Below are positions 20-23,690 of a stretch of 64,000 nt of DNA, piece by piece. The notes below the pieces were generated by a model, which saw only the letters and a list, made by a program, of their open reading frames with translations, did not search any database and had not been told where the DNA came from. The translations under genes were made by a program, and so were the position numbers. Every line of letters begins with the position of its first letter. Position 1 is the stretch's first letter. The DNA is from Bradyrhizobium sp. CB1650 (GTDB taxonomy: Bacteria > Pseudomonadota > Alphaproteobacteria > Rhizobiales > Xanthobacteraceae), in assembly GCF_029761915.1 (NCBI RefSeq), contig NZ_CP121695.1, positions 9,205,501-9,269,500 on the forward strand, in the 5' to 3' direction.

Positions 20-1828
20 ATGGGGGCTGAACAGCCTGAAACGATCGCCGCGATCGTGGCCGCGCATCGCGCAGGCACGATCACGCCAGCGCAAACGATC
101 GCGCGCTGCTATCGGCGCATCCGCGATCACAACGATCCCGCGGTCTTCATCAGCCTGCGCGACGAGGCGGATGCGATCGCCGAGGCCGACAAGCTCGCCG
201 CACGGAAGGATGCAGCAAACCTGCCCCTCTACGGCGTTCCGGTCGCGGTGAAGGACAATATCGACGCGCTGGGCTTTGCGACCACGGCCGCGTGCCCAGC
301 ATTCTCCTACACGCCGACGCATGATTCCACTGCGGTGGAGCGGCTGCGCGCCGCCGGCGCCATCATCATCGGCAAGACGAACCTCGACCAGTTCGCCACC
401 GGCCTTGTCGGCGTCCGCTCGCCCTATGGCATCCCCAAAAATTCGATCCGCGAGGATCTGATCCCGGGCGGCTCGAGCTCGGGATCGGCGACCGCCGTCG
501 GCGCAGGGCTGGTGCCGCTATCGCTCGGCACCGACACCGCCGGATCAGGCCGCGTGCCGGCGATGCTGAACAATATCGTCGGGCTGAAGCCGAGCCTCGG
601 CATGATCCCGACCGCGGGTGTTGTGCCGGCCTGCCGCACGCTCGACTGCATCTCGGTGTTCGCGCTGACGGTCGACGACGCCGCACTCGCGCTCTCCGTG
701 ATGGCGGGCCCAGACCAGGCCGATCCGTTCTCCCGCGACAGGCCACTGGGCGCGCTCACGCCGTTCCCGGCGAACTTGCGGCTCGGTGTGCCGCGCAACG
801 GACAATTGATCTTCTTCGGCGACAAGAGGGCGGAGGCGGCCTACGCCGAGGCGCTGCAGCGCTGGACCGCGCTCGGCGCGACACTGGTCGAATTCGACCT
901 CGAGCCGTTCTACGAGACGGCGCGGCTACTCTACGAAGGACCGTGGGTCGCCGAGCGTTATCTCGTGATCCGCAACCTGCTCGCCTCCGCACCGGATGCG
1001 ATCCACCCTGTCACGCGCGAAATCACCGCTGCCGGCGCGCGGCTCACGGCGGCGGAGACTTTCTCCGCGCTCTACCGCCTGCAGGGTCTGCGCAAGACCG
1101 CCGAGCGCACCTTCGCCGATCTGGATGCGCTGGTGCTGCCGACGGCGCCGACGGTCTATTCGACCGCGCAGGTGCTCGCCAACCCGATCGAGCTCAACAG
1201 CCGGCTCGGCACCTACACCAATTTCGTCAACCTGCTCGATCTCTGCGGCCTCGCGCTGCCGGCATCGATGCGGGCCGACGGCGCGCCGTTCGGCATCACG
1301 CTTCTCGCCCCCGCAGGACGCGATGCGCAGCTCGCCGGCATCGGCCGCGTTTTCCATGCCGATACCAAGCTGAGCGTCGGCGCGAAGGGCGTCGCGCAAC
1401 TACCGCTCGCTCGGCTTGCCGCGAGCACAAGCGACGAGATTCCGATCGCGGTGGTCGGCGCGCATCTCTCCGGCATGGCGCTGAACGGCGAATTGAAGGC
1501 GCTGGACGGACGCCTGATCGAGGCGACCAAAACCGCGCCGGACTACAAGCTCTATGCGCTTCAGACCACGCCGCCGAAGCCCGGGATGCTGCGTGTCGAA
1601 GCCGGCAAGGGCGCCGCGATCGAGCTGGAGATCTGGTCGCTGTCGGCGGCCGCCTTCGGCAAATTTGTCAATGCGATTCCCGCGCCGCTGTCGATCGGCA
1701 CGGTGCGCCTCGCCGATGGCCGCAGCGTGAAGGGTTTTATTGTCGAACCCGAAGCGCTGGGGGACGCACGCGACATCACTGCCTATGGCGGCTGGCGCGC
1801 GTATATGGCGGAGAAGGCGACGGCTTGA
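20..1828 (+). CDS. atzF: Allophanate hydrolase / urea-dicarboxylate hydrolase (AtzF)
   Basis: Amidase-signature hydrolase that completes ureide nitrogen release, turning allophanate (or urea-1,3-dicarboxylate made by AtzEG) into ammonia and CO2 in the cytosol. The 602-residue protein has the Ser-cisSer-Lys triad region: Lys near 78 in VAVKDN, the GGSSSGS stretch near 151-157 and the nucleophile Ser near 176 in DTAGSGR. Residues from about 470 form the extra C-terminal domain typical of full-length AtzF, ending in GGWRAYM. An ATG at 20 is preceded by GGAG at 5-8; the frame stays open to the window edge, so an upstream start cannot be excluded. It converges on the atzGEH/transporter operon rather than being part of it. 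No urea carboxylase gene is visible, which favours the AtzEG-AtzF route over urea amidolyase. Confidence 0.9.
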   Translation: MGAEQPETIAAIVAAHRAGTITPAQTIARCYRRIRDHNDPAVFISLRDEADAIAEADKLAARKDAANLPLYGVPVAVKDNIDALGFATTAACPAFSYTPTHDSTAVERLRAAGAIIIGKTNLDQFATGLVGVRSPYGIPKNSIREDLIPGGSSSGSATAVGAGLVPLSLGTDTAGSGRVPAMLNNIVGLKPSLGMIPTAGVVPACRTLDCISVFALTVDDAALALSVMAGPDQADPFSRDRPLGALTPFPANLRLGVPRNGQLIFFGDKRAEAAYAEALQRWTALGATLVEFDLEPFYETARLLYEGPWVAERYLVIRNLLASAPDAIHPVTREITAAGARLTAAETFSALYRLQGLRKTAERTFADLDALVLPTAPTVYSTAQVLANPIELNSRLGTYTNFVNLLDLCGLALPASMRADGAPFGITLLAPAGRDAQLAGIGRVFHADTKLSVGAKGVAQLPLARLAASTSDEIPIAVVGAHLSGMALNGELKALDGRLIEATKTAPDYKLYALQTTPPKPGMLRVEAGKGAAIELEIWSLSAAAFGKFVNAIPAPLSIGTVRLADGRSVKGFIVEPEALGDARDITAYGGWRAYMAEKATA

Positions 1829-10757: not shown

Positions 10758-12080
10758 CTACCGGTCCGGGCTGGCGCGCTCGAACTGGCGCAAGAGCTTG
10801 TTGCCGCGCTCGACCGCGGAATCGAGTGCGGCCTGGGCCCCCTTCTTGCCGGCAAAGGCCTGCTCCAGCTCGTCCTCGATCGCGCCGCGGATCAGCACGA
10901 AGGAGCCGAGCCGGATGCCCTTGGAATTCTCCGTCGGCGAATGCAGCGTGATCTCCTCGAACGAGATCGCCGAGCCCGGGTCGCGCTCGTAGAATCCTTG
11001 CGCGCGCGTCAACTCGAAGGCGGCGCGGGTGATCGGCAGATAGCCGGTGTTCTGGTGCCAGGCCGCCTGCACGCCGGGCTGCGACAGGTAGGCGAAGAAC
11101 CTCGCCACGCCCTTGTATTCCTCGCGCGGGCGATCGCGCAGCACCCACAGCGTGGCGCCGCCGATGATCGAGTTCTGCGGCGCGTCCTTCACGTCCGGCC
11201 AGTACGGCATCATGCCGTAACCGATCTCGAACTTCGAATTCGCCTTGATGTCGGCGCGCGTCGCCGAGGAGCCGATGAAGATGCCGCACTCCCCGTTCTG
11301 GAAGCGCGGCTCGGCCGACTGCCCGCGGCCGCTGTAGTCGAACACCTTGTCCTTCTGCCATTCGGCGAGCTGGGCGATGTGATGCACCAGCGGCGCATTG
11401 TTGATGGTCAGCTCCGCATCCAGCCCGGCAAAGCCGTTGGTGCGGCTCGCGAGCGGAAGGTTGTGGAAGGCGGAAAAATTCTCGACATGGATCCAGGACG
11501 GCCAGGACGTGGTGAAGCCGCACACCGCGCCGCGCTCGCGCAGGCGTTTTGCAGCAAGCCCCAGCTCCGGCCACGTCTTCGGCGGCTTCTCCGGATCTAG
11601 GCCGGCGCCGCGGAACATGGTCTTGTTGTAGTAGAGGATCGGCGTCGACGCATTGAACGGGAAGGACAACAGATTGCCCGCCGCGTCGGCGTAATAGCCG
11701 GAGACCGCGGGAAGATAGACCTCCGGCCTGAACGGCTCGTTCAAATCCCTCATCAGGCTGGACACCGGATAGATCGCGCCCTTGGCCGCGGTCATGGTCG
11801 CGGTCGCGACCTCGTTGACCTGGACGATCGCAGGCTGGCCGCGCGAGCGGAAGGCGAAGATCGCCGCCGTCACGGTCTCGGTGTAGTTGCCCTTGTAGCT
11901 CGGCAGGATCCGGTAGTCGGATTGCGAGGCGTTGAAGTCGGAAGCGAGCTTCTCCAACTGTCGGCCGAGCTCGCCCGACATCGCGTGCCACAGCGCGATG
12001 TCGGTGGCGGCGCAGGCCGGCGCGGTCAGGGCAAGGACCGTGGCGGCGGCAAGGGCTTGCAAGAGGCGCGAGGCGGACAT
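10758..12080 (-). CDS. Orphan extracellular solute-binding protein, UgpB-like (family 1)
   Basis: 440-residue periplasmic binding protein with a Sec signal (SASRLLQALAAATVLALTAPACA, cleaved after about residue 24) and family-1 features of sn-glycerol-3-phosphate binders: TDIALWHAMSG, LASDFNASQSDYRI, and a central YYNKTMFRGAGLDP...PKTWPEL hinge. ATG at 12080; a GTG one codon earlier is also possible. No permease or ATPase gene accompanies it. It is divergent from a TRAP-type binding protein followed by a sensor kinase and two regulators, and it lies upstream, in the same direction, of the nitrogen operon. It may feed a distant transporter or act as a ligand sensor for the kinase. Substrate is not defined. 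Confidence 0.85.
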   Translation of the reverse strand: MSASRLLQALAAATVLALTAPACAATDIALWHAMSGELGRQLEKLASDFNASQSDYRILPSYKGNYTETVTAAIFAFRSRGQPAIVQVNEVATATMTAAKGAIYPVSSLMRDLNEPFRPEVYLPAVSGYYADAAGNLLSFPFNASTPILYYNKTMFRGAGLDPEKPPKTWPELGLAAKRLRERGAVCGFTTSWPSWIHVENFSAFHNLPLASRTNGFAGLDAELTINNAPLVHHIAQLAEWQKDKVFDYSGRGQSAEPRFQNGECGIFIGSSATRADIKANSKFEIGYGMMPYWPDVKDAPQNSIIGGATLWVLRDRPREEYKGVARFFAYLSQPGVQAAWHQNTGYLPITRAAFELTRAQGFYERDPGSAISFEEITLHSPTENSKGIRLGSFVLIRGAIEDELEQAFAGKKGAQAALDSAVERGNKLLRQFERASPDR

Positions 12081-12153
12081 CACGATTCGCTCATCCCGTC
12101 GGCTGCGAACAAAAACGCGACTTTCGTTCGCTCGTGCTTAAGGCCCGGCATTC

Positions 12154-12167
12154 CCGGTTTCAACCGG
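12154..12167. promoter_or_regulatory. Candidate operator, CCGGTT-TC-AACCGG
   Basis: A 14-base palindrome with perfect 6-base arms, in the 214-base region between the divergent UgpB-like and DctP-like genes. A bound regulator here could control both binding proteins, possibly the OmpR-type regulator of this locus. Only symmetry and position support it. Confidence 0.35.
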
Positions 12168-12294
12168 AAATAAGGCTCAATCGCACCGCACAATCAACAG
12201 CCGGGTCGCGGCGGGATGGCCTTCCCCTAACCATCTGCTAGATTGCATTGAACCTTTTGGTCCCGCCATAGACTCCATCACTGAGGGGTTGAGT

Positions 12295-13290
12295 GTGCCA
12301 GTGTTGAACCGTGCCGAACTCTCGCGGACCGGGGTGGTTTTTGTCGTGCTCTTGATCGCGATGTGCGCGACGGGGACGTTTGCGCGCGAATTTCGCGCCG
12401 CCGACACCCAGAGCGAGGATTACCCGACCGTCCAGGCGCTGCGCTACATGGGCGCCCTGATCGCAGAGCGCACCGGTGGCCGGCACGAGATCAAGGTGTT
12501 TCACTCCCGCCAGCTCGGCGAGGAAAAGGAGACGATCGAGCAGACCCGGGCCGGCGCGATCGACCTCAACCGGATCAATGTGGCACTGATCGGCAACTTC
12601 GTCCCGGCGATGAATGTGCTCGCCATGCCGTTCCTGTTCCGCTCCATCGAGCACATGCAGAAGGTGGTGGACGGGCCGATCGGCCGTGAGATCCTGGACA
12701 GCTTCGAGCCCTACGGCTTCGTCGGCCTCGCCTTCTACGATTCCGGCGCGCGGTCGATCTACAACGGCGCCCGGCCGGTGAAGAGCGTGGCCGACCTCGG
12801 AGGCTTGCGCATCCGGGTGCAGCAGACGGAGTTGATGAGCGAGATGATCCGCTCGCTCGGCGCCGAGCCGGTCGAGCTGCCCTATGGGCAGGTGCTCACG
12901 GGGCTTGCCACCCATCTGATCGATGGGGCGGAGAACAACTGGCCCTCTTTCGTGACGACGGACCACTACAAATATGCCGGCTACTACACGCTCACCGAAC
13001 ACACCATGAGCCCTGAGGTGCTGGTGATCTCGCTCAAGGCCTGGCAGAGCCTGTCGGCCGACGACCGCAAGATCTTCAAGGAGGCCGCGCTGCGCTCCGG
13101 CCGATTCATGCGCGAGAAGTGGCGCGACCTCGAGGAGCAGTCGCAGCACAAGGCGGAGGCCGCCGGCGTCGTCATCGTTCGCAACATCGACCGCAAGCCG
13201 TTCGAAGACGCGATGGCTCCGATCTACGCCAAGGCCGCGCGCGACCCCGCGGCGGCGGCGCTGATCGAACGCATTCGCAAGGTGGAGTGA
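12295..13290 (+). CDS. TRAP-type solute-binding protein, DctP family, linked to a sensor kinase
   Basis: 331-residue periplasmic protein with an N-terminal signal helix (GVVFVVLLIAMCATGTFA) and the DctP fold. Family hallmarks include the QLGEEKETIEQTRAGAID segment, FRSIEHMQKVVDGPIG, the conserved GGLRIRVQQTELMSEMIRSLGAEPVELPYG strand-helix with its carboxylate-binding Arg, and the LIDGAENNW motif. GTG at 12295 is preferred because GAGGGG lies 6 bases before it; a TTG at 12289 is in frame too. No DctQ or DctM membrane subunits follow; instead the sensor kinase begins 6 bases later. This suggests a role as an extracytoplasmic sensor partner for an organic-acid-like ligand. Confidence 0.87.
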   Translation: MPVLNRAELSRTGVVFVVLLIAMCATGTFAREFRAADTQSEDYPTVQALRYMGALIAERTGGRHEIKVFHSRQLGEEKETIEQTRAGAIDLNRINVALIGNFVPAMNVLAMPFLFRSIEHMQKVVDGPIGREILDSFEPYGFVGLAFYDSGARSIYNGARPVKSVADLGGLRIRVQQTELMSEMIRSLGAEPVELPYGQVLTGLATHLIDGAENNWPSFVTTDHYKYAGYYTLTEHTMSPEVLVISLKAWQSLSADDRKIFKEAALRSGRFMREKWRDLEEQSQHKAEAAGVVIVRNIDRKPFEDAMAPIYAKAARDPAAAALIERIRKVE

Positions 13291-13296
13291 GGCGTC

Positions 13297-15375
13297 TTGG
13301 CCGAGCCCGGACACAGCGAGCACGCAGACCGGCTGCCCGGCCCGGTCGGGCGGCTGCGCGCGCGCCTGGTCGGCGCGTTGCGGGCGGTGCCGATCCGCTG
13401 GCGCATCCTGTCGATCGCGGCGCTCAACTCCGCGGTGGTGGTGGTGCTGGTCGGACTGATCTGGAACGGGTCGCAAGTGCTGGGCATGGCCTGGGACGAC
13501 GTGCGCCAGGTGCGCGAGTCCGACAAGATCCTGGCGCTGCTCGAAAGCGAAACCGGGCGCCTGCAGAACCTGATCCACCGCTACATCAACCAGCCGAGCC
13601 CGGACCTGTTCGCCGAAATCCTGCTGCTGCGCGAGGCCGTGCTGGGCACGCTGACCAACCGCGCCGCAAAGGACCCGATGCTGGCCGGCTCGGTCGAGGA
13701 GCTGGAGCGCACCACCGAGCGCTTCCTCAACGGCTTCGGCGAGCTGCGCAGCGTGCAGGCGACCATCGCCAAGACCTATGAGGAGCAGGTGCAGGGCCCC
13801 GCCAAGGACATGGCGGGCCTCTATTCGATCATCGAAGGCGCCACCGGTCACCGCGACGCGCTGATCTGGCCTTCGCTCGGCAAATCCCGCGAGGCCTTCA
13901 CCGCCATGCTGGTCGCGGCGAACTCCTATTACCTGTCGCTGTCACCGGCCGCCGCGGACGACGCGCGCCGCAACACCGAGACGATCGAGAAGACCATTCC
14001 CGTGATGATCGATCTCGCCGACAACGACCTGCAGCGCATGGCGCTGCAAAAGCTGGCGTTGCGCACCACCGCGATGCGCGAGGGATTTGCAAAGCTCTCC
14101 GAGCAGCTCACCAGCCGCACCGAGCTGCTGCGCAACACGATCGATGCCAGCCAGGCCGAGGCGATCGGCGCCATCGACGACCTCTCGACCAAGATGCGCC
14201 AGCGCGAGCAGAAGGCGCAGGAGACTTTCGACCGCACGCTGGCGGACATTTCGCGGCGGGTGCTCTCGATCGCTGTGATCTTCCTCGGCATCATCCTGAG
14301 CGCAGGCGTGCTGATCGCGCTGTCGATCCGGCTGCCGCTGCAGCAGATCATGACCGCGATGCGCGCGATCACGCTGGGCGATCTCGACCGCGAGGTTCAG
14401 GGCATCAAGGCGCGCGACGAGGTCGGCGCCATGGCACGCGCGGTGGAGGTGTTCCGCGAGAACGCGATCGCCAAGCGCAAGGCCGAGGACGAGCTGCGCG
14501 CGTCGAAGGAAAAGGCCGAGAGCGCGCTGCTCGAGCTCAACACCGCCCAGCAGAACCTGATCGATGCCGAGCGGCTCGCGGCGCTCGGCGGCCTCGTCGC
14601 CGGCGTCGCCCACGAAGTCAACAACCCCATCGGCATCAGCCTCACCGTGGCCTCGAGCTTCGCCCGGCGCAGCGATATCTTCGGGGCGCAGCTCAAGGGC
14701 GACGGCGGCCTGCGCCGCTCGCAACTCGAGGAATTCGTGCAGGCCTCGCGCGACGCCTCGCAACAGCTCGTCGCCAACCTCACGCGCGCCGGCGAGTTGA
14801 TCCAGTCGTTCAAGCAGGTCGCGGTCGACCGCTCGCATGCCGAGCGGCGGCAGTTTTCGCTCAGCGAAGCCACGGACCAGATCATCGCGAGCCTGCGCCC
14901 CGTCCTGAAACGCTCGCCGATCACGCTGCAGGTCGACGTGCCCGAAGGGTTACTGCTCGACGGCTATCCCGGCTCCTACGGCCAGATCCTCACCAACCTG
15001 TTCCTCAACGCCGCCAACCACGCCTTCGGCGACGGCCGCGCCGGCACCATCGCGATCTCGGCACGGCCGCGCGGATCCGACGACATCGAGATCATCTTTG
15101 CCGATGACGGGGCCGGCATGACGCCCGACGTGCAGCGCCAGGCCTTTGACCCTTTCTTTACCACCCGGCGCAATGAAGGCGGCACGGGCCTCGGCCTGCA
15201 TATCGTCTACAACCTGGTGACCCAGCAGCTCGGCGGGCGAATGATGCTGGAATCCAAGCCGGGACAAGGCACTACTTTTCGGATTATCATGCCGCGGGTC
15301 GCCAAGGGCGGCGCGCAAAGCACAGAGACTGACGGGACTTCTCAATGGCCGAACAGGACGATGTCCTCCACCTGA
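13297..15375 (+). CDS. Membrane sensor histidine kinase, TorS-like layout
   Basis: 692-residue kinase. Order: membrane helix about 37-56, a helical periplasmic region about 57-321, second helix 322-343, HAMP 344-395, coiled coil, HisKA with phospho-acceptor His 439 in AGVAHEVNNPIG, and HATPase_c with N-box NLFLNAANHA (568-577), DDGAGM and GGTGLGL. The long all-helical periplasmic region between two helices resembles TorS, which reads a partner binding protein (TorT); here the DctP-like protein is the adjacent candidate partner. TTG start at 13297 has GGAG about 9 bases upstream and lies 6 bases after the binding-protein stop. There is no receiver or Hpt domain. Its 3' end overlaps the next gene by 31 bases. 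Confidence 0.9.
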   Translation: MAEPGHSEHADRLPGPVGRLRARLVGALRAVPIRWRILSIAALNSAVVVVLVGLIWNGSQVLGMAWDDVRQVRESDKILALLESETGRLQNLIHRYINQPSPDLFAEILLLREAVLGTLTNRAAKDPMLAGSVEELERTTERFLNGFGELRSVQATIAKTYEEQVQGPAKDMAGLYSIIEGATGHRDALIWPSLGKSREAFTAMLVAANSYYLSLSPAAADDARRNTETIEKTIPVMIDLADNDLQRMALQKLALRTTAMREGFAKLSEQLTSRTELLRNTIDASQAEAIGAIDDLSTKMRQREQKAQETFDRTLADISRRVLSIAVIFLGIILSAGVLIALSIRLPLQQIMTAMRAITLGDLDREVQGIKARDEVGAMARAVEVFRENAIAKRKAEDELRASKEKAESALLELNTAQQNLIDAERLAALGGLVAGVAHEVNNPIGISLTVASSFARRSDIFGAQLKGDGGLRRSQLEEFVQASRDASQQLVANLTRAGELIQSFKQVAVDRSHAERRQFSLSEATDQIIASLRPVLKRSPITLQVDVPEGLLLDGYPGSYGQILTNLFLNAANHAFGDGRAGTIAISARPRGSDDIEIIFADDGAGMTPDVQRQAFDPFFTTRRNEGGTGLGLHIVYNLVTQQLGGRMMLESKPGQGTTFRIIMPRVAKGGAQSTETDGTSQWPNRTMSST

Positions 15376-17090
15376 TCGACGATACCGGTACCGCGTCGGA
15401 GGATAGCAACTCCCGGAAATGGAAGATCGCCGTCATCGACGACGACCCGGCCGTGCATGACGGCACCCGCTTTGCGCTGTCCGACTACAGCCTCAACGGC
15501 CAGACCCTGGAGATCCTCTCCGCCCATTCCGCGGCGGAAGGTCGCAAGCTGATGCGCCAGCACGGCGACATCGCCGCCGTGCTGCTCGATGTCATCATGG
15601 AGACGGACGTCGCCGGCCTCGAGCTCGTCGAGTTCATCCGCAACGAGCTCAAGAACGAGACCGTTCGCATCATCCTGCGCACCGGCCAGCCCGGCCAGGC
15701 GCCCGAGCGGCGCGTGATCGTGCAGTACGACATCAACGACTACAAGGCCAAGACCGAGCTCACCGCAGACAAGCTGTTCACCTCGCTGACTGCGGCGCTG
15801 CGCTCCTATCAGCAGCTCGAGCGCATGGTGCAGACGAGGCGCGGGCTCGAAATCATCATCGATGCGGCCTCGACGCTCTACGACTTCAAGTCGATGCAGC
15901 GCCTCGCCGAGGGCGTGCTGACCCAGCTCGCCTCGCTGCTCAACGTCGACTGCGCCGGAATCCTGGTGCTGCGCGACAATGGCGGATCGGACGCCGAGCT
16001 CTCCGTGCTCGCGGGGAGCGGCTGCTACAGCCGCTTCATCGGCACGACCTCCTCGAAGGCGCTCGATCCCGATCTGCGCGCGATGGTGGAGGCCGCGTTC
16101 CAGCGCCGCAAGAACGAATTCGCCGACCACCGCAGCGTGATCTACCTGCGCACCGGCAGCGGCCGCGAGGTCGTGGTGCTGCTGCAGGCCGAGCGTGAGC
16201 TGTCCGAGACCGACCGCTCGCTCGTCGAGATCTTCTCCAGCCGGCTCTCGATCGCCTTCGACAACGTGATCCTCTATCAGCAGCTCCAGGACGCCAACAC
16301 CCAGCTCGAGGACCGCGTCGCCCAGCGCACCCGCGCGCTGATGCAGGCCAATCGCCGCCTGTCGGCGCAATGGCTGCGGCTGCAACGCGCCAACGGCTTC
16401 AAGAACGAGATCCTGGGCACGGTCGCGCACGACCTGAAGAATCCGCTCGGCGTCATCCTCGGCCGCACCGAGATGCTGAAGGAACTGATCTCGACCGGCG
16501 CCTCCGAAGGCGGCGTGATCTCCCAGGTCGACCACATCCGCGACGCCACCAAGCGGCTGACCACGATGGTGGATCATCTGATCTCGGACGCGATGGCCGA
16601 TGCCTTCGACATCACCATTCGCCGCGAGCCGGTCGACGTCGCCGCGCTGGTCCAGGAGGTCGCCGAAGCCAACCAGCCGCTGGCGGTCAACAAGCAGCAG
16701 GCGATCACCGTCGCGGCGCCGCCCAACATCGTCACCATGTGCGACACCGACCGGATCCGCGAGGCGATCGACAATCTGATCAGCAACGCGATCAAATACA
16801 GCCCGATCGGCGGCAGGATCGCCGTGGCGGTCACGCACGAGGGCAACGACACCGTCGTGCGCGTCAGCGATGACGGCGCCGGCCTGTCGCCGGAGGATCT
16901 CGGCCGCCTGTTCGGCCGGTTCCAGCGGCTGTCGGCCAAGCCGACCGCGGGCGAGAGCTCGACGGGCCTTGGGCTTTCCATCGTCAAGCGTATTATCGAC
17001 ATGCATGGTGGCGAGGTAACCGCCGAGAGCGGCGGCCCCGGCAAGGGAGCGACCTTCACCATCACGCTGCCCGCGACCGAAATGCCATGA
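15345..17090 (+). CDS. Hybrid regulator: receiver - DUF3369 (GAF-like) - histidine kinase
   Basis: 581-residue cytosolic protein with no membrane helix. Receiver domain about 25-150 (acidic IDDDP pocket and phospho-acceptor Asp near 82 in LLDVIMETD), DUF3369/GAF-like domain about 160-310, coiled coil about 310-350, HisKA with AHDLKNPLG near His 362, and HATPase_c with NLISNAIKYSP, DDGAGL and STGLGL. The N-terminal receiver placed ahead of a kinase makes it an intermediate relay: it can accept phosphate from the upstream kinase and then signal through its own kinase. It overlaps the preceding kinase gene and is followed by a separate OmpR-type regulator after a short repeat-containing spacer. 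Confidence 0.9.
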   Translation: MAEQDDVLHLIDDTGTASEDSNSRKWKIAVIDDDPAVHDGTRFALSDYSLNGQTLEILSAHSAAEGRKLMRQHGDIAAVLLDVIMETDVAGLELVEFIRNELKNETVRIILRTGQPGQAPERRVIVQYDINDYKAKTELTADKLFTSLTAALRSYQQLERMVQTRRGLEIIIDAASTLYDFKSMQRLAEGVLTQLASLLNVDCAGILVLRDNGGSDAELSVLAGSGCYSRFIGTTSSKALDPDLRAMVEAAFQRRKNEFADHRSVIYLRTGSGREVVVLLQAERELSETDRSLVEIFSSRLSIAFDNVILYQQLQDANTQLEDRVAQRTRALMQANRRLSAQWLRLQRANGFKNEILGTVAHDLKNPLGVILGRTEMLKELISTGASEGGVISQVDHIRDATKRLTTMVDHLISDAMADAFDITIRREPVDVAALVQEVAEANQPLAVNKQQAITVAAPPNIVTMCDTDRIREAIDNLISNAIKYSPIGGRIAVAVTHEGNDTVVRVSDDGAGLSPEDLGRLFGRFQRLSAKPTAGESSTGLGLSIVKRIIDMHGGEVTAESGGPGKGATFTITLPATEMP

Positions 17091-17132
17091 TCTGAACGCC
17101 AAGCTCCGAACGCCAAGCTCTGAACGCGAAGA
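17091..17132 (+). repeat. Three 14-base direct repeats between regulator genes
   Basis: Units TCTGAACGCCAAGC, TCCGAACGCCAAGC and TCTGAACGCGAAGA follow directly on the hybrid-kinase stop codon, with a partial fourth (TCCGAG) ending close to the next start. The block fills the whole spacer before the OmpR-type gene, which lacks an obvious Shine-Dalgarno sequence apart from the GAG at 17136-17138. Confidence 0.7.
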
Positions 17133-17142
17133 TCCGAGTGAC

Positions 17143-17877
17143 ATGACCCAAAGCCAGCACATCATGATCGTCGACGACGAGGCCCCGGCCCGAGAAATGG
17201 TCGGTGATTACCTCAAGATGCACGGCTTCACCGTGACGCTGTGCGACGGTGGCAAGAGCCTGCGCGACGCGATCGAAGGCGGCATGCCCGATCTCGTCGT
17301 GCTCGATCTCAACATGCCCGAGGAAGACGGGCTCTCGATCATCCGCGACTTGAAGAGTCGCATCAACGTGCCGGTGATCATGCTCACGGCGACCGCGAGC
17401 CCGATCGATCGCGTCGTGGGCCTCGAGCTCGGCGCCGACGACTACGTGGCCAAGCCCTGCGAGCTGCGCGAATTGATGGCGCGCATCCGCTCGGTGCTGC
17501 GGCGGAGCGCGCCGGCAAAGGCGGCACCGGAAGCCGCTGCGGCGAAGTCCGACAAGGATCAGCTCGTGCGCTTCGGCACCAAATGGCTCGACCTCGAGGC
17601 CCAGGCCTTGCGCGACGACGAGGGCAACGAGCATCCGCTGACCGCGTCCGAGTTCGGGCTATTGAAAGTGTTCGCGGCCAATCCGAAGCGTGTGCTGTCG
17701 CGCGAGCGTCTGTTGGAATTGGCCAATGCGCGCGATGCGGAAGCGTTCGACCGCGCCGTCGACCTGCGCATCATGCGCATCCGCCGCAAGATCGAGCCCG
17801 ACCCGACCAAGCCCGCCGTGATCCGCACCATCCGCGGCGGCGGCTACCTGTTCTCGCCGGCGGGCGAGAAGGCGTAA
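17143..17877 (+). CDS. OmpR/PhoB-type response regulator
   Basis: 244-residue DNA-binding regulator. Receiver domain (about 5-120) has the DDE acidic pair at 11-12, phospho-acceptor Asp 55 in VVLDLNMPEEDG, the Thr of MLTATAS and Lys in YVAKPCELRELMAR. An Ala/Lys linker leads to a winged-helix output domain (about 140-240) with LTASEFGLLKVFAANP, VDLRIMRIRRKIE and the terminal IRTIRGGGYLFS. It is the last gene of the binding-protein/kinase/relay cluster and so the likely transcriptional output. Target genes are unknown; the divergent binding-protein promoters are candidates. Confidence 0.92.
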   Translation: MTQSQHIMIVDDEAPAREMVGDYLKMHGFTVTLCDGGKSLRDAIEGGMPDLVVLDLNMPEEDGLSIIRDLKSRINVPVIMLTATASPIDRVVGLELGADDYVAKPCELRELMARIRSVLRRSAPAKAAPEAAAAKSDKDQLVRFGTKWLDLEAQALRDDEGNEHPLTASEFGLLKVFAANPKRVLSRERLLELANARDAEAFDRAVDLRIMRIRRKIEPDPTKPAVIRTIRGGGYLFSPAGEKA

Positions 17878-18041: not shown

Positions 18042-18299
18042 GGCGGAGATTGAGGCCGGACCGAACGCAAGACCCTGCGATTCGTTCCTGGGCCCCCAAA
18101 TCCCCCACCCCGTATTTTCCGCACATTGAAATTGCACGATTTTTTGCCCCGAATGTTTCGTCGCCCCCCTTCCGACGAAACAATTTGACGGCGCACGAAA
18201 CCATTTTTCGCTTGTCGCGCAGACGTCCCGAAACGCTGGCTCTTTAACACTTTCACCTAAGGAAACGCCGCTCGGTTGCGGCGCTACGGGGAGCCAGTC

Positions 18300-18911
18300 A
18301 TGCAAAACGTCGTCGCCATCAACGCCGAAGCCAGCCAGAGCATCATTGCTGCTCAGGCGACCTCGGACGACATGCTCCTGGAAAGCATCGCCGACGGCAA
18401 CCGTACGGCCATGCACATCCTCTATTGCCGGCATAATGTGCGGGTGTACCGCTTCATCCTGCGCATCGTGCGCGACGCCACCACGGCGGAAGACCTCGTC
18501 AGCCAGGTTTTCCTGGACGTGTGGCGCACCGCCAGACAATTCCAGGGCCGCTCGCAGGTCTCGACCTGGCTGCTCTCGATCGCCCGCTTCAAGGCGCTGA
18601 CCGCGATGCGCCAGCGCCGCTTCGAGGACATCGACCAGGAAGACGTGCGCGAGATTCCCGACGAGGCCGACACGCCCGAGACCTCGCTCGACCGCAGCGA
18701 CACCAGCGCGATCCTGCGCGCCTGCGTGGCAAAGCTGTCGCCCGCGCATCGCGAGATCATCAACCTCGTCTACTACCATGAGAAGTCGGTGGAGGAGGTC
18801 GGCGCGATCATCGGCATCCCCCAGAGCACGGTGAAGACGCGGATGTTCTACGCCCGCAAACAGCTCGCCGATTTGCTTAAAGGCGCCGGCGTCGACCGCT
18901 TCGCCGCGTAA
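18300..18911 (+). CDS. ECF-type RNA polymerase sigma factor
   Basis: 203-residue sigma-70-family factor with region 2 (about 35-100: HILYCRHNVRVYRFILRIV, DLVSQVFLDVWRTARQF) and region 4 (about 140-195: LSPAHREIINLVYYHEKSVEEVG followed by IPQSTVKTRMFYARKQL). Regions 1 and 3 are missing, as in extracytoplasmic-function factors. ATG at 18300 is preceded by GGGGAG at 18288-18293. No anti-sigma factor gene is next to it: upstream is the two-component cluster and downstream a repeat-rich gap, so its control is not apparent. It is not recognisably EcfG, since NepR and PhyR are absent. Confidence 0.9.
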   Translation: MQNVVAINAEASQSIIAAQATSDDMLLESIADGNRTAMHILYCRHNVRVYRFILRIVRDATTAEDLVSQVFLDVWRTARQFQGRSQVSTWLLSIARFKALTAMRQRRFEDIDQEDVREIPDEADTPETSLDRSDTSAILRACVAKLSPAHREIINLVYYHEKSVEEVGAIIGIPQSTVKTRMFYARKQLADLLKGAGVDRFAA

Positions 18912-22652: not shown

Positions 22653-23690
22653 ATGCGCACATTCCGAGGCGGCCTGCTGATCGGCCTCGCGGTCGCCGTA
22701 CTGGTCGGCGCCCTGGCGGTCACCTACGAGTTCTACGACACCCGCACGCTGAAGCGCACGATCCGGCGTGGCGAGGTGCTGTGCGGCGTCAACAAGGGCC
22801 TGCCGGGCTTCTCGATTCCCGACGACAAGGGCAACTGGACCGGCTTCGACGTCGATTTCTGCCGCGCGGTGGCGAGCGCCATCTTCAACGATCCGAGCAA
22901 GGCGAAATTCGTTCCGCTCGACGCCAGCGAGCGCTTCAAGGAATTGCAGAGCCGCAAAGTCGACATCCTCTCGCGCAACTCGACCTGGAGCATGGCGCGT
23001 GAGCTCGACTACGACCTCTATTTCCCGGCCGTCGCGTATTACGACGGCGCAGGCTTCATGGTCCCGCGCGCACGCAACAAGGAGACCTCGCTGGATCTGA
23101 CCGGCAGCAAGGTCTGTGTGCAGGCCGGCACCACGACGCTGCTCAACCTCGCCGACTACTTCCGTGCCAACAACATGAAGTATGAAGAGGTGAAGCTCGA
23201 CAAGCTCGACGACGTGGTGAAGGCCTACGACGCCGGCAAGTGCGACACGCTGACCGCCGACGTCTCCCAGCTCTATGCGCTGCGGCTGAACCTGTCCAAG
23301 CCCGGCGACCACATGATCCTGCCGGACATGATCTCCAAGGAGCCGCTCGCCCCCGTGGTGCGCCAGCGCGACGACGACTGGATGATGATCGTGAAGTGGA
23401 CGCTCTATGCGATGATCAACGCCGAGGAGCTCGGCGTCACCTCGGAGAACATCGACGAGGCGCTGAAGTCCAAGAAGCCCGACGTGATGCGGCTGGTCGG
23501 CACCGAGGGCAATTACGGCGAGCAGCTCGGCCTCACCAAGGACTGGGCCGTGCGCATCATCCGCCACGTCGGCAATTACGGCGAGATGTACGAGCGCAAT
23601 ATCGGCGAGAAGTCCAAGCTGAAGATCCCACGCGGCATGAACCAGCTCTGGAACGCCGGCGGCGTGCAGTATGCACCCCCGGTGCGGTAA
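22653..23690 (+). CDS. AapJ-like general amino-acid binding protein, orphan
   Basis: 345-residue periplasmic protein with an N-terminal helix (GGLLIGLAVAVLVGALAVTYEFYDT) acting as signal or anchor, then a family-3 solute-binding fold: GEVLCGVNKGLPGFSIPDDKG, GFDVDFCRAVASAIF, SRNSTWSMARE and VQAGTTTLLNLADYF. These match AapJ/BztA binding proteins for acidic and general L-amino acids. The usual AapQ, AapM and AapP genes do not follow, so this is a lone paralog that must share a transporter encoded elsewhere, or sense. A cluster of repeats follows the stop. Confidence 0.9.
   Translation: MRTFRGGLLIGLAVAVLVGALAVTYEFYDTRTLKRTIRRGEVLCGVNKGLPGFSIPDDKGNWTGFDVDFCRAVASAIFNDPSKAKFVPLDASERFKELQSRKVDILSRNSTWSMARELDYDLYFPAVAYYDGAGFMVPRARNKETSLDLTGSKVCVQAGTTTLLNLADYFRANNMKYEEVKLDKLDDVVKAYDAGKCDTLTADVSQLYALRLNLSKPGDHMILPDMISKEPLAPVVRQRDDDWMMIVKWTLYAMINAEELGVTSENIDEALKSKKPDVMRLVGTEGNYGEQLGLTKDWAVRIIRHVGNYGEMYERNIGEKSKLKIPRGMNQLWNAGGVQYAPPVR

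Follow-up and report, generated by a model that had tools for sequence, protein, structure and literature searches.

Gene content of the locus

The 64,000-nucleotide stretch of the Bradyrhizobium sp. CB1650 genome analyzed here (contig NZ_CP121695.1, positions 9,205,501 to 9,269,500; hereafter the window) contains a candidate signaling system fed by periplasmic binding proteins. By the list of open reading frames (ORFs), its five-gene set is complete: an orphan UgpB, a binding protein of the ATP-binding cassette (ABC) type; DctP, a binding protein of the tripartite ATP-independent periplasmic (TRAP) family; two histidine kinases (HK1 and HK2); and an OmpR-type response regulator (RR; Table 1). 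The original prediction, that two binding proteins lie with kinases and a regulator and that no transporter subunits adjoin them, is borne out. The dctP and HK1 genes are separated by 6 bases, the end of HK1 shares 31 bases with the start of HK2 and 52 bases lie between HK2 and RR, a layout from which we judge that dctP-HK1-HK2-RR probably form an operon. Binding protein, kinase and regulator genes are grouped as in three-component systems of the AioXSR and CuaDSR type. Upstream of dctP, a putative promoter block is conserved across an alignment of 20 related intergenic regions. Pfam detects only HAMP and HATPase domains in HK1, which has no REC or HPt domain of its own; the REC domain sits on HK2, in which we found no convincing membrane segment.

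Table 1 Features of the locus and their coordinates in the window.
Feature	Coordinates	Strand	Basis or remark
UgpB, orphan ABC binding protein, divergent from dctP	10758..12083	-	NCBIfam equivalog NF008211, 549.5 bits (cut-off 411)
Divergent intergenic region	12084..12288	.	Conserved block upstream of dctP around TTGAACCTTTTG..TAGACT
DctP, TRAP-family periplasmic binding protein	12289..13290	+	PF03480, 273.5 bits (cut-off 23.4); TIGR00787 above cut-off
HK1, membrane histidine kinase	13297..15375	+	TTG start; HAMP, H439, HATPase_c
HK1 segments: transmembrane (TM) 37-55, helical periplasmic sensor ~60-321, TM 322-340			Hydrophobicity and predicted fold
HK1 codons 189-196 (L189, K196), part of putative DctP docking patch	13861..13884	+	
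HK1 codons 236-240 (V236, D239, L240), part of putative DctP docking patch	14002..14016	+	
HK2, REC (D82)-DUF3369-HisKA (H362)-HATPase	15345..17090	+	Pfam
RR, OmpR-type response regulator (D55), REC and Trans_reg_C	17143..17877	+	
Extracytoplasmic function (ECF) sigma factor gene	18276..18911	+	NF009168, 349.5 bits (cut-off 236)

dctP-HK1-HK2-RR is an old unit of one order

Orthologues of HK1 were found in 97 of the 296 genomes searched from the window's family, including all 27 of its genus (two of the orthologues are fragmentary), so the gene set is not a chance association. Searches of the order returned 33 of 397 genomes, 17 of those from three other families, and searches of the class returned 2 of 385, both from the window's genus. 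We read the 97 family loci, the window included, and the 17 from other families; the resulting counts depend on draft genomes, and family loci lacking enough upstream sequence were scored as not judgeable (three for DctP, three for UgpB). At the family loci DctP was initially scored as intact in 39, a remnant in 6 and absent from 49; one copy first taken as intact (L151) is frameshifted, leaving 38 intact among the 94 judgeable. UgpB is present and divergent at 80 family loci, absent from 13 and a remnant at 1. At the loci of other families DctP is intact in 15 of 17, a remnant in 1 and absent from 1, and none has UgpB, which argues that dctP-HK1-HK2-RR is the older unit and that UgpB joined it inside one family. 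dctP-HK1-HK2-RR is thus an old co-inherited signaling unit of one order, Hyphomicrobiales by its named relatives.

The genome of CB1650 is 9.43 Mb in one contig and has 21 DctP places and 19 DctM places; among those listed, the DctM closest to the window locus lies at a distance of about 280 kb. Elsewhere the genome also carries a full set of ugpBAEC genes in one operon, its UgpC, UgpE, UgpA and UgpB all above NCBIfam cut-offs. The UgpB of the window is 50% identical to this operonic UgpB and is an extra copy, since the full operon has its own. We searched 96 orthologous family loci by tblastn with the genome's own DctQ, DctM, UgpA and UgpE (E 1e-6, at least a quarter of the query covered) and found no match to UgpA, UgpE or DctQ. 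The sole DctM-like match (27%) lies beyond the regulator gene of a locus without either binding protein (L060), and UgpC matches reach only 25-37%, as for generic ATPases.

DctP of this class is always found beside HK1

Within the family, 39 of 296 genomes have a DctP at least 58% identical to that of the window; across the order the count is 18 of 259, with 12 of the 18 belonging to other families. By coordinate comparison, DctP of this class directly adjoins HK1 in all 51 distinct genomes where it occurs. The next best DctP matches in the family are at most 52% identical, and all 21 of the nearest relatives that we read have DctQ and DctM adjoining, while none has an HK1-like kinase. DctQM genes co-inherited with this DctP, the case named beforehand as speaking against a signaling role, were searched for and none was found. 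Among 144 plasmid records with a DctP match, none reached 60% identity.

The kinase-linked DctPs also differ in sequence from their transport relatives. Q41, H72, E78 and M183 are present in 53 of 53 kinase-linked copies and are rare or absent among the 21 transport relatives, which carry mainly H, N/P, S/G and W/F at these positions; R176 is invariant in all sets compared (53, 21 and 19 copies). Q201 and V222 were considered as part of this signature and dropped, as both occur in all 8 transport DctPs of Tardiphaga that have DctQ and DctM adjoining. The closest solved DctPs (4n8y, 4mij, 4ovr, 4x8r and 4n15) are ones that we take to bind uronic acids. Identities of DctP and HK2 correlate (r 0.88, 1378 pairs), as expected from vertical inheritance.

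Repeated loss of DctP leaves the relay intact

We placed 112 loci on a tree of HK1 and HK2 built by a quick method, from which the fragments L136 and L128 were left out; support was good for 70 of its 109 inner branches. On this tree at least 13 changes are required for DctP presence and at least 6 for UgpB; if regain is disallowed, DctP was lost 16 times. Twelve of these losses fall on UgpB-bearing branches, one of which (L081) now holds only a UgpB remnant, and 4 on UgpB-less branches, an excess on the former over the expectation from branch length (one-sided P 0.015; 0.008 with another treatment of one clade).

The catalytic residues H439 and N571 of HK1, D82 and K134 of HK2 and D55 of RR are invariant in all aligned rows, DctP-less rows included, and H362 of HK2 is present in all except one, which has a gap there. 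Because these residues stay invariant after DctP loss, the relay shows no decay. Over evolution DctP has been dispensable, and HK1 seems not to depend on it. The loci of Tardiphaga and Rhodopseudomonas are among those without DctP. Leftovers of DctP, ORFs of about 91-97 residues, lie directly upstream of HK1 in L086, L153, L156, L157 and L158; in L153 and L156-L158 they still begin with a signal-peptide-like stretch. The leftovers may represent either decay or residual function.

Residues of the HK1 sensor change where DctP is lost

The predicted fold of the HK1 sensor, a two-module, all-helical periplasmic domain, matches those of TorS and McpS, and the best structural match to the model is to the ligand-binding domain of McpS, whose structure was determined with malate and succinate. 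Kinship with TorS in sequence was rejected: HK1 scores 93.5 bits against TIGR02956 (cut-off 676.5) and 56.6 bits against NF008543 (cut-off 982), hhalign with the sensor alone gave a probability below 1%, and no similarity to the E. coli TorS sensor was detected. Pfam searches at E up to 1 returned HAMP in 10 of 10 members; no other family matched more than 2 members, and none of those matches had an E value better than 0.03. The TorS-like layout first proposed for this kinase is thus retained for the predicted fold and not for the sequence.

We took 61 sensor sites that are conserved where DctP is present and counted 77 changes at them across the 16 loss lineages, against 48 at 119 kinase-core sites of the same lineages, a normalized sensor/core ratio of 3.1. 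The control, 17 held-out DctP-bearing lineages, gave 30 sensor and 46 core changes and a ratio of 1.3 (sums and ratios of both sets were computed by hand from the per-lineage rows). L135 was left out of the site analyses, and L135, L132 and rows without HK2 were left out of the rate analysis. When 440 conserved columns from HK1 and HK2 were scanned over phylogenetically independent pairs, L189 (9:0), V236 (5:0), D239 (4:0) and K196 (4:1) ranked highest, all in the sensor, and no column outside the sensor was above 3. Averaged over conserved columns, the value was 0.77 for the sensor, 0.53 for TM2-HAMP and 0.12-0.40 for other parts of HK1 and HK2, and among the partners 0.03 for the regulator and 0.13 for UgpB. 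All 52 DctP-bearing rows carry L189, V236 and D239, and 51 of them carry K196, whereas the 57 DctP-less rows are changed at L189 in 33, at V236 in 13, at D239 in 26 and at K196 in 22. L189 is again the top column among UgpB-bearing loci taken alone (5:0). All four residues are also kept in 23 of 23 DctP-bearing rows from further named genomes, which are non-duplicate, related to the first set and so not independent of it (L254 and L277 excluded).

In the structural model, residues 189, 196, 236 and 239 sit at one end of the bundle. That end is probably the membrane-distal tip, and such a position fits the expectation for a docking site. The change of sensor residues where DctP was lost suggests that DctP docks at the HK1 sensor and reports a nutrient.

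Four loci of another family (f28; L200, L201, L202 and L215) have an HK1 with an insertion of about 90-125 residues between the HAMP/linker region and the kinase core; trimming may have removed the N-terminus of these sequences, and their patch residues could nonetheless be read.

UgpB is a later recruit

The closest solved chains to the window UgpB are 4aq4 and 9lff. Its binding motifs, which correspond to the ligand motifs of E. coli UgpB, are conserved in 79 aligned copies, and only three residues are specific to the class. UgpA adjoins 13 of 20 UgpB copies at other loci and none at the 96 family HK1 loci. UgpB is a later recruit to the locus, of the Ugp-transporter type. Retention of its motifs, the absence of UgpA and UgpE from HK1 loci and the gathering of DctP losses with UgpB together suggest that it may now serve as a second input or as a replacement for DctP. 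An obligate partnership with HK1 was ruled out, as this UgpB type occurs in 19 HK1-less genomes and some HK1 loci lack it. One ugpAEC locus without HK1 (L223, in G081) has a tandem UgpB pair, one of the window type (67%) and one of the operonic type (81% to the operonic copy of CB1650), perhaps a stage of duplication.

A model for DctP action and its alternatives

The gene unit, its co-inheritance, the predicted sensor fold, the repeated loss of DctP and the residues that change alongside are computed results. Building on them, we propose that DctP docks on the tip of the HK1 sensor and modulates HK1, which feeds HK2 and the regulator, and that DctP is not essential to this system; we give this reading a probability of about 0.62. 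It calls for docking and modulation and not for dependence of HK1 because DctP is linked to HK1, sensor residues track its loss and the relay survives that loss. We infer the physical docking, its membrane-distal placement, the type of ligand, the flow of phosphate and the part played by UgpB. In the periplasm, DctP would bind a carboxylate, possibly of the sugar-acid kind, and dock at the membrane-distal tip of the TorS/McpS-type bundle, at about residues 189-196 and 236-240. Docked DctP would shift the kinase/phosphatase balance of HK1; phosphate would pass from HK1 to the REC domain of HK2, to the regulator or to both, and from HK2 to the regulator, which would set transcription. DctP would thus confer extra sensitivity or an extra ligand. 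HK1 seems functional without it, and might then sense directly or through another protein, with UgpB as the leading candidate.

Several observations weigh against this proposal. DctP is absent, a remnant or frameshifted at 56 of 94 judgeable family loci in which HK1 is intact. An old Tardiphaga-type loss clade of 17 loci keeps the patch, with no conserved sensor site altered in at least a quarter of its rows, and 4 of 12 DctP-less rows from the further named genomes keep all four residues. The sensor was not seen to relax as a whole: within UgpB-bearing loci its overall rate is no higher once DctP is gone (0.79 versus 0.85, intervals overlapping). The pairs test for L189 has a median p of 0.004, without correction for multiple columns; a better guard than this p value is the behavior of the control domains. 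The earlier idea that a TRAP protein has taken the role of TorT thus stands insofar as DctP is always beside HK1 and sensor residues track its loss, and falls short in that the protein is not obligatory.

UgpB may instead be the working input in this clade, for glycerol-3-phosphate or a related compound, with DctP redundant and being lost. This explanation, which we consider unlikely, draws on the presence of UgpB at 80 of the 97 family loci against 38 with intact DctP, on the 12 of 16 DctP losses on UgpB-bearing branches, on the missing UgpA and UgpE and on the motifs kept in the 79 copies. It is weakened by the 19 HK1-less genomes with this UgpB type and by loss of UgpB at several loci that retain HK1. 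No UgpB sites change alongside DctP loss, and the patch tracks DctP and not demonstrably UgpB, for which gains and losses are too few to give power.

Also unlikely, in our estimation, is that the HK1 bundle binds a small molecule directly in the manner of McpS, the binding proteins being mere neighbors or regulated targets. The McpS match speaks for it, as do seven family loci where neither binding protein is intact and HK1 is kept with its catalytic residues. It leaves unexplained both the strict DctP-HK1 linkage and the specific change of sensor residues that follows DctP loss. That DctP and UgpB are ordinary transport proteins using distant DctQM and UgpAEC permeases, perhaps as targets of the kinase beside them, is improbable: the many DctM places and the ugpBAEC operon would allow it, and it stays viable for UgpB with its few class-specific residues, but the four signature residues of kinase-linked DctPs and their invariable place beside HK1 argue against it.

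Neighboring genes

An ECF sigma factor gene lies 3' of the regulator gene and has a tblastn match in 79 of 114 loci; none of the 17 loci read in other families showed it. Further downstream, the ORF at window positions 22653-23690 (+) resembles, by eye, an amino-acid binding protein and is perhaps another orphan; the large ORFs listed next after it include nothing permease-like.

Comparison with known systems

In addition to the fold of its sensor, the system resembles TorT-TorS-TorR in pairing a periplasmic protein with a kinase; TorT is reported to bind TorS with or without ligand (PMC6321045). It differs in that DctP belongs to the TRAP family (PF03480) and not to that of TorT, the HK1 sensor is not detectably related to TorS in sequence, HK1 lacks its own REC and HPt domains and is followed by a separate REC-DUF3369 kinase, and DctP is dispensable over evolution. 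The arsenite system AioX-AioS-AioR likewise has binding protein, kinase and regulator genes and a transporter-type family turned to signaling, whereas AioX is PhnD-like and all three Aio genes are reported essential (PMC5908839). In the cellobiose system CuaD-CuaS-CuaR (PMC10384115), a dedicated binding protein, CuaD, binds its kinase, and a two-component form without CuaD still senses, less well; a binding protein that adds to sensing and does not enable it therefore has a precedent. CuaD differs as an ABC-type lipoprotein of a Gram-positive organism with the target transporter operon adjacent. In the citrate system BctC-BctE-BctD (PMC5812351), the sensor kinase is stimulated by a binding protein, BctC, that belongs to the TTT class of secondary transporters; BctC also serves a linked transporter, BctBA, whereas no permease is linked to DctP here.

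McpS shares the helical bimodular domain of the HK1 sensor and differs as a chemoreceptor that binds malate and succinate directly. With the TRAP transporter DctPQM the system shares the DctP family, without adjoining DctQ and DctM, and with the Ugp ABC transporter it shares UgpB, without adjoining UgpA, UgpE and UgpC. The number of characterized kinases fed by binding proteins is put at only about ten, and of 22 families of binding proteins 13 are known to contact receptors (PMC9602780). Searches of open PMC full text brought up no sensor kinase acted on by a protein of the DctP family, and a published case may still exist.

A tentative extension is that the input has been swapped, recruitment of UgpB, which comes from a different transporter superfamily, having repeatedly displaced the ancestral DctP while the docking tip was remodeled and the catalytic relay stayed fixed. 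If so, the ligand of a receptor would change by exchange of its periplasmic scaffold and not of its sensor. The related kinases form a natural series, some accompanied by DctP or UgpB alone, some by both and some by neither, and the locus adds four candidate docking residues, so that the gain, loss and exchange of a periplasmic input protein becomes directly testable in Bradyrhizobium, Tardiphaga and Rhodopseudomonas.
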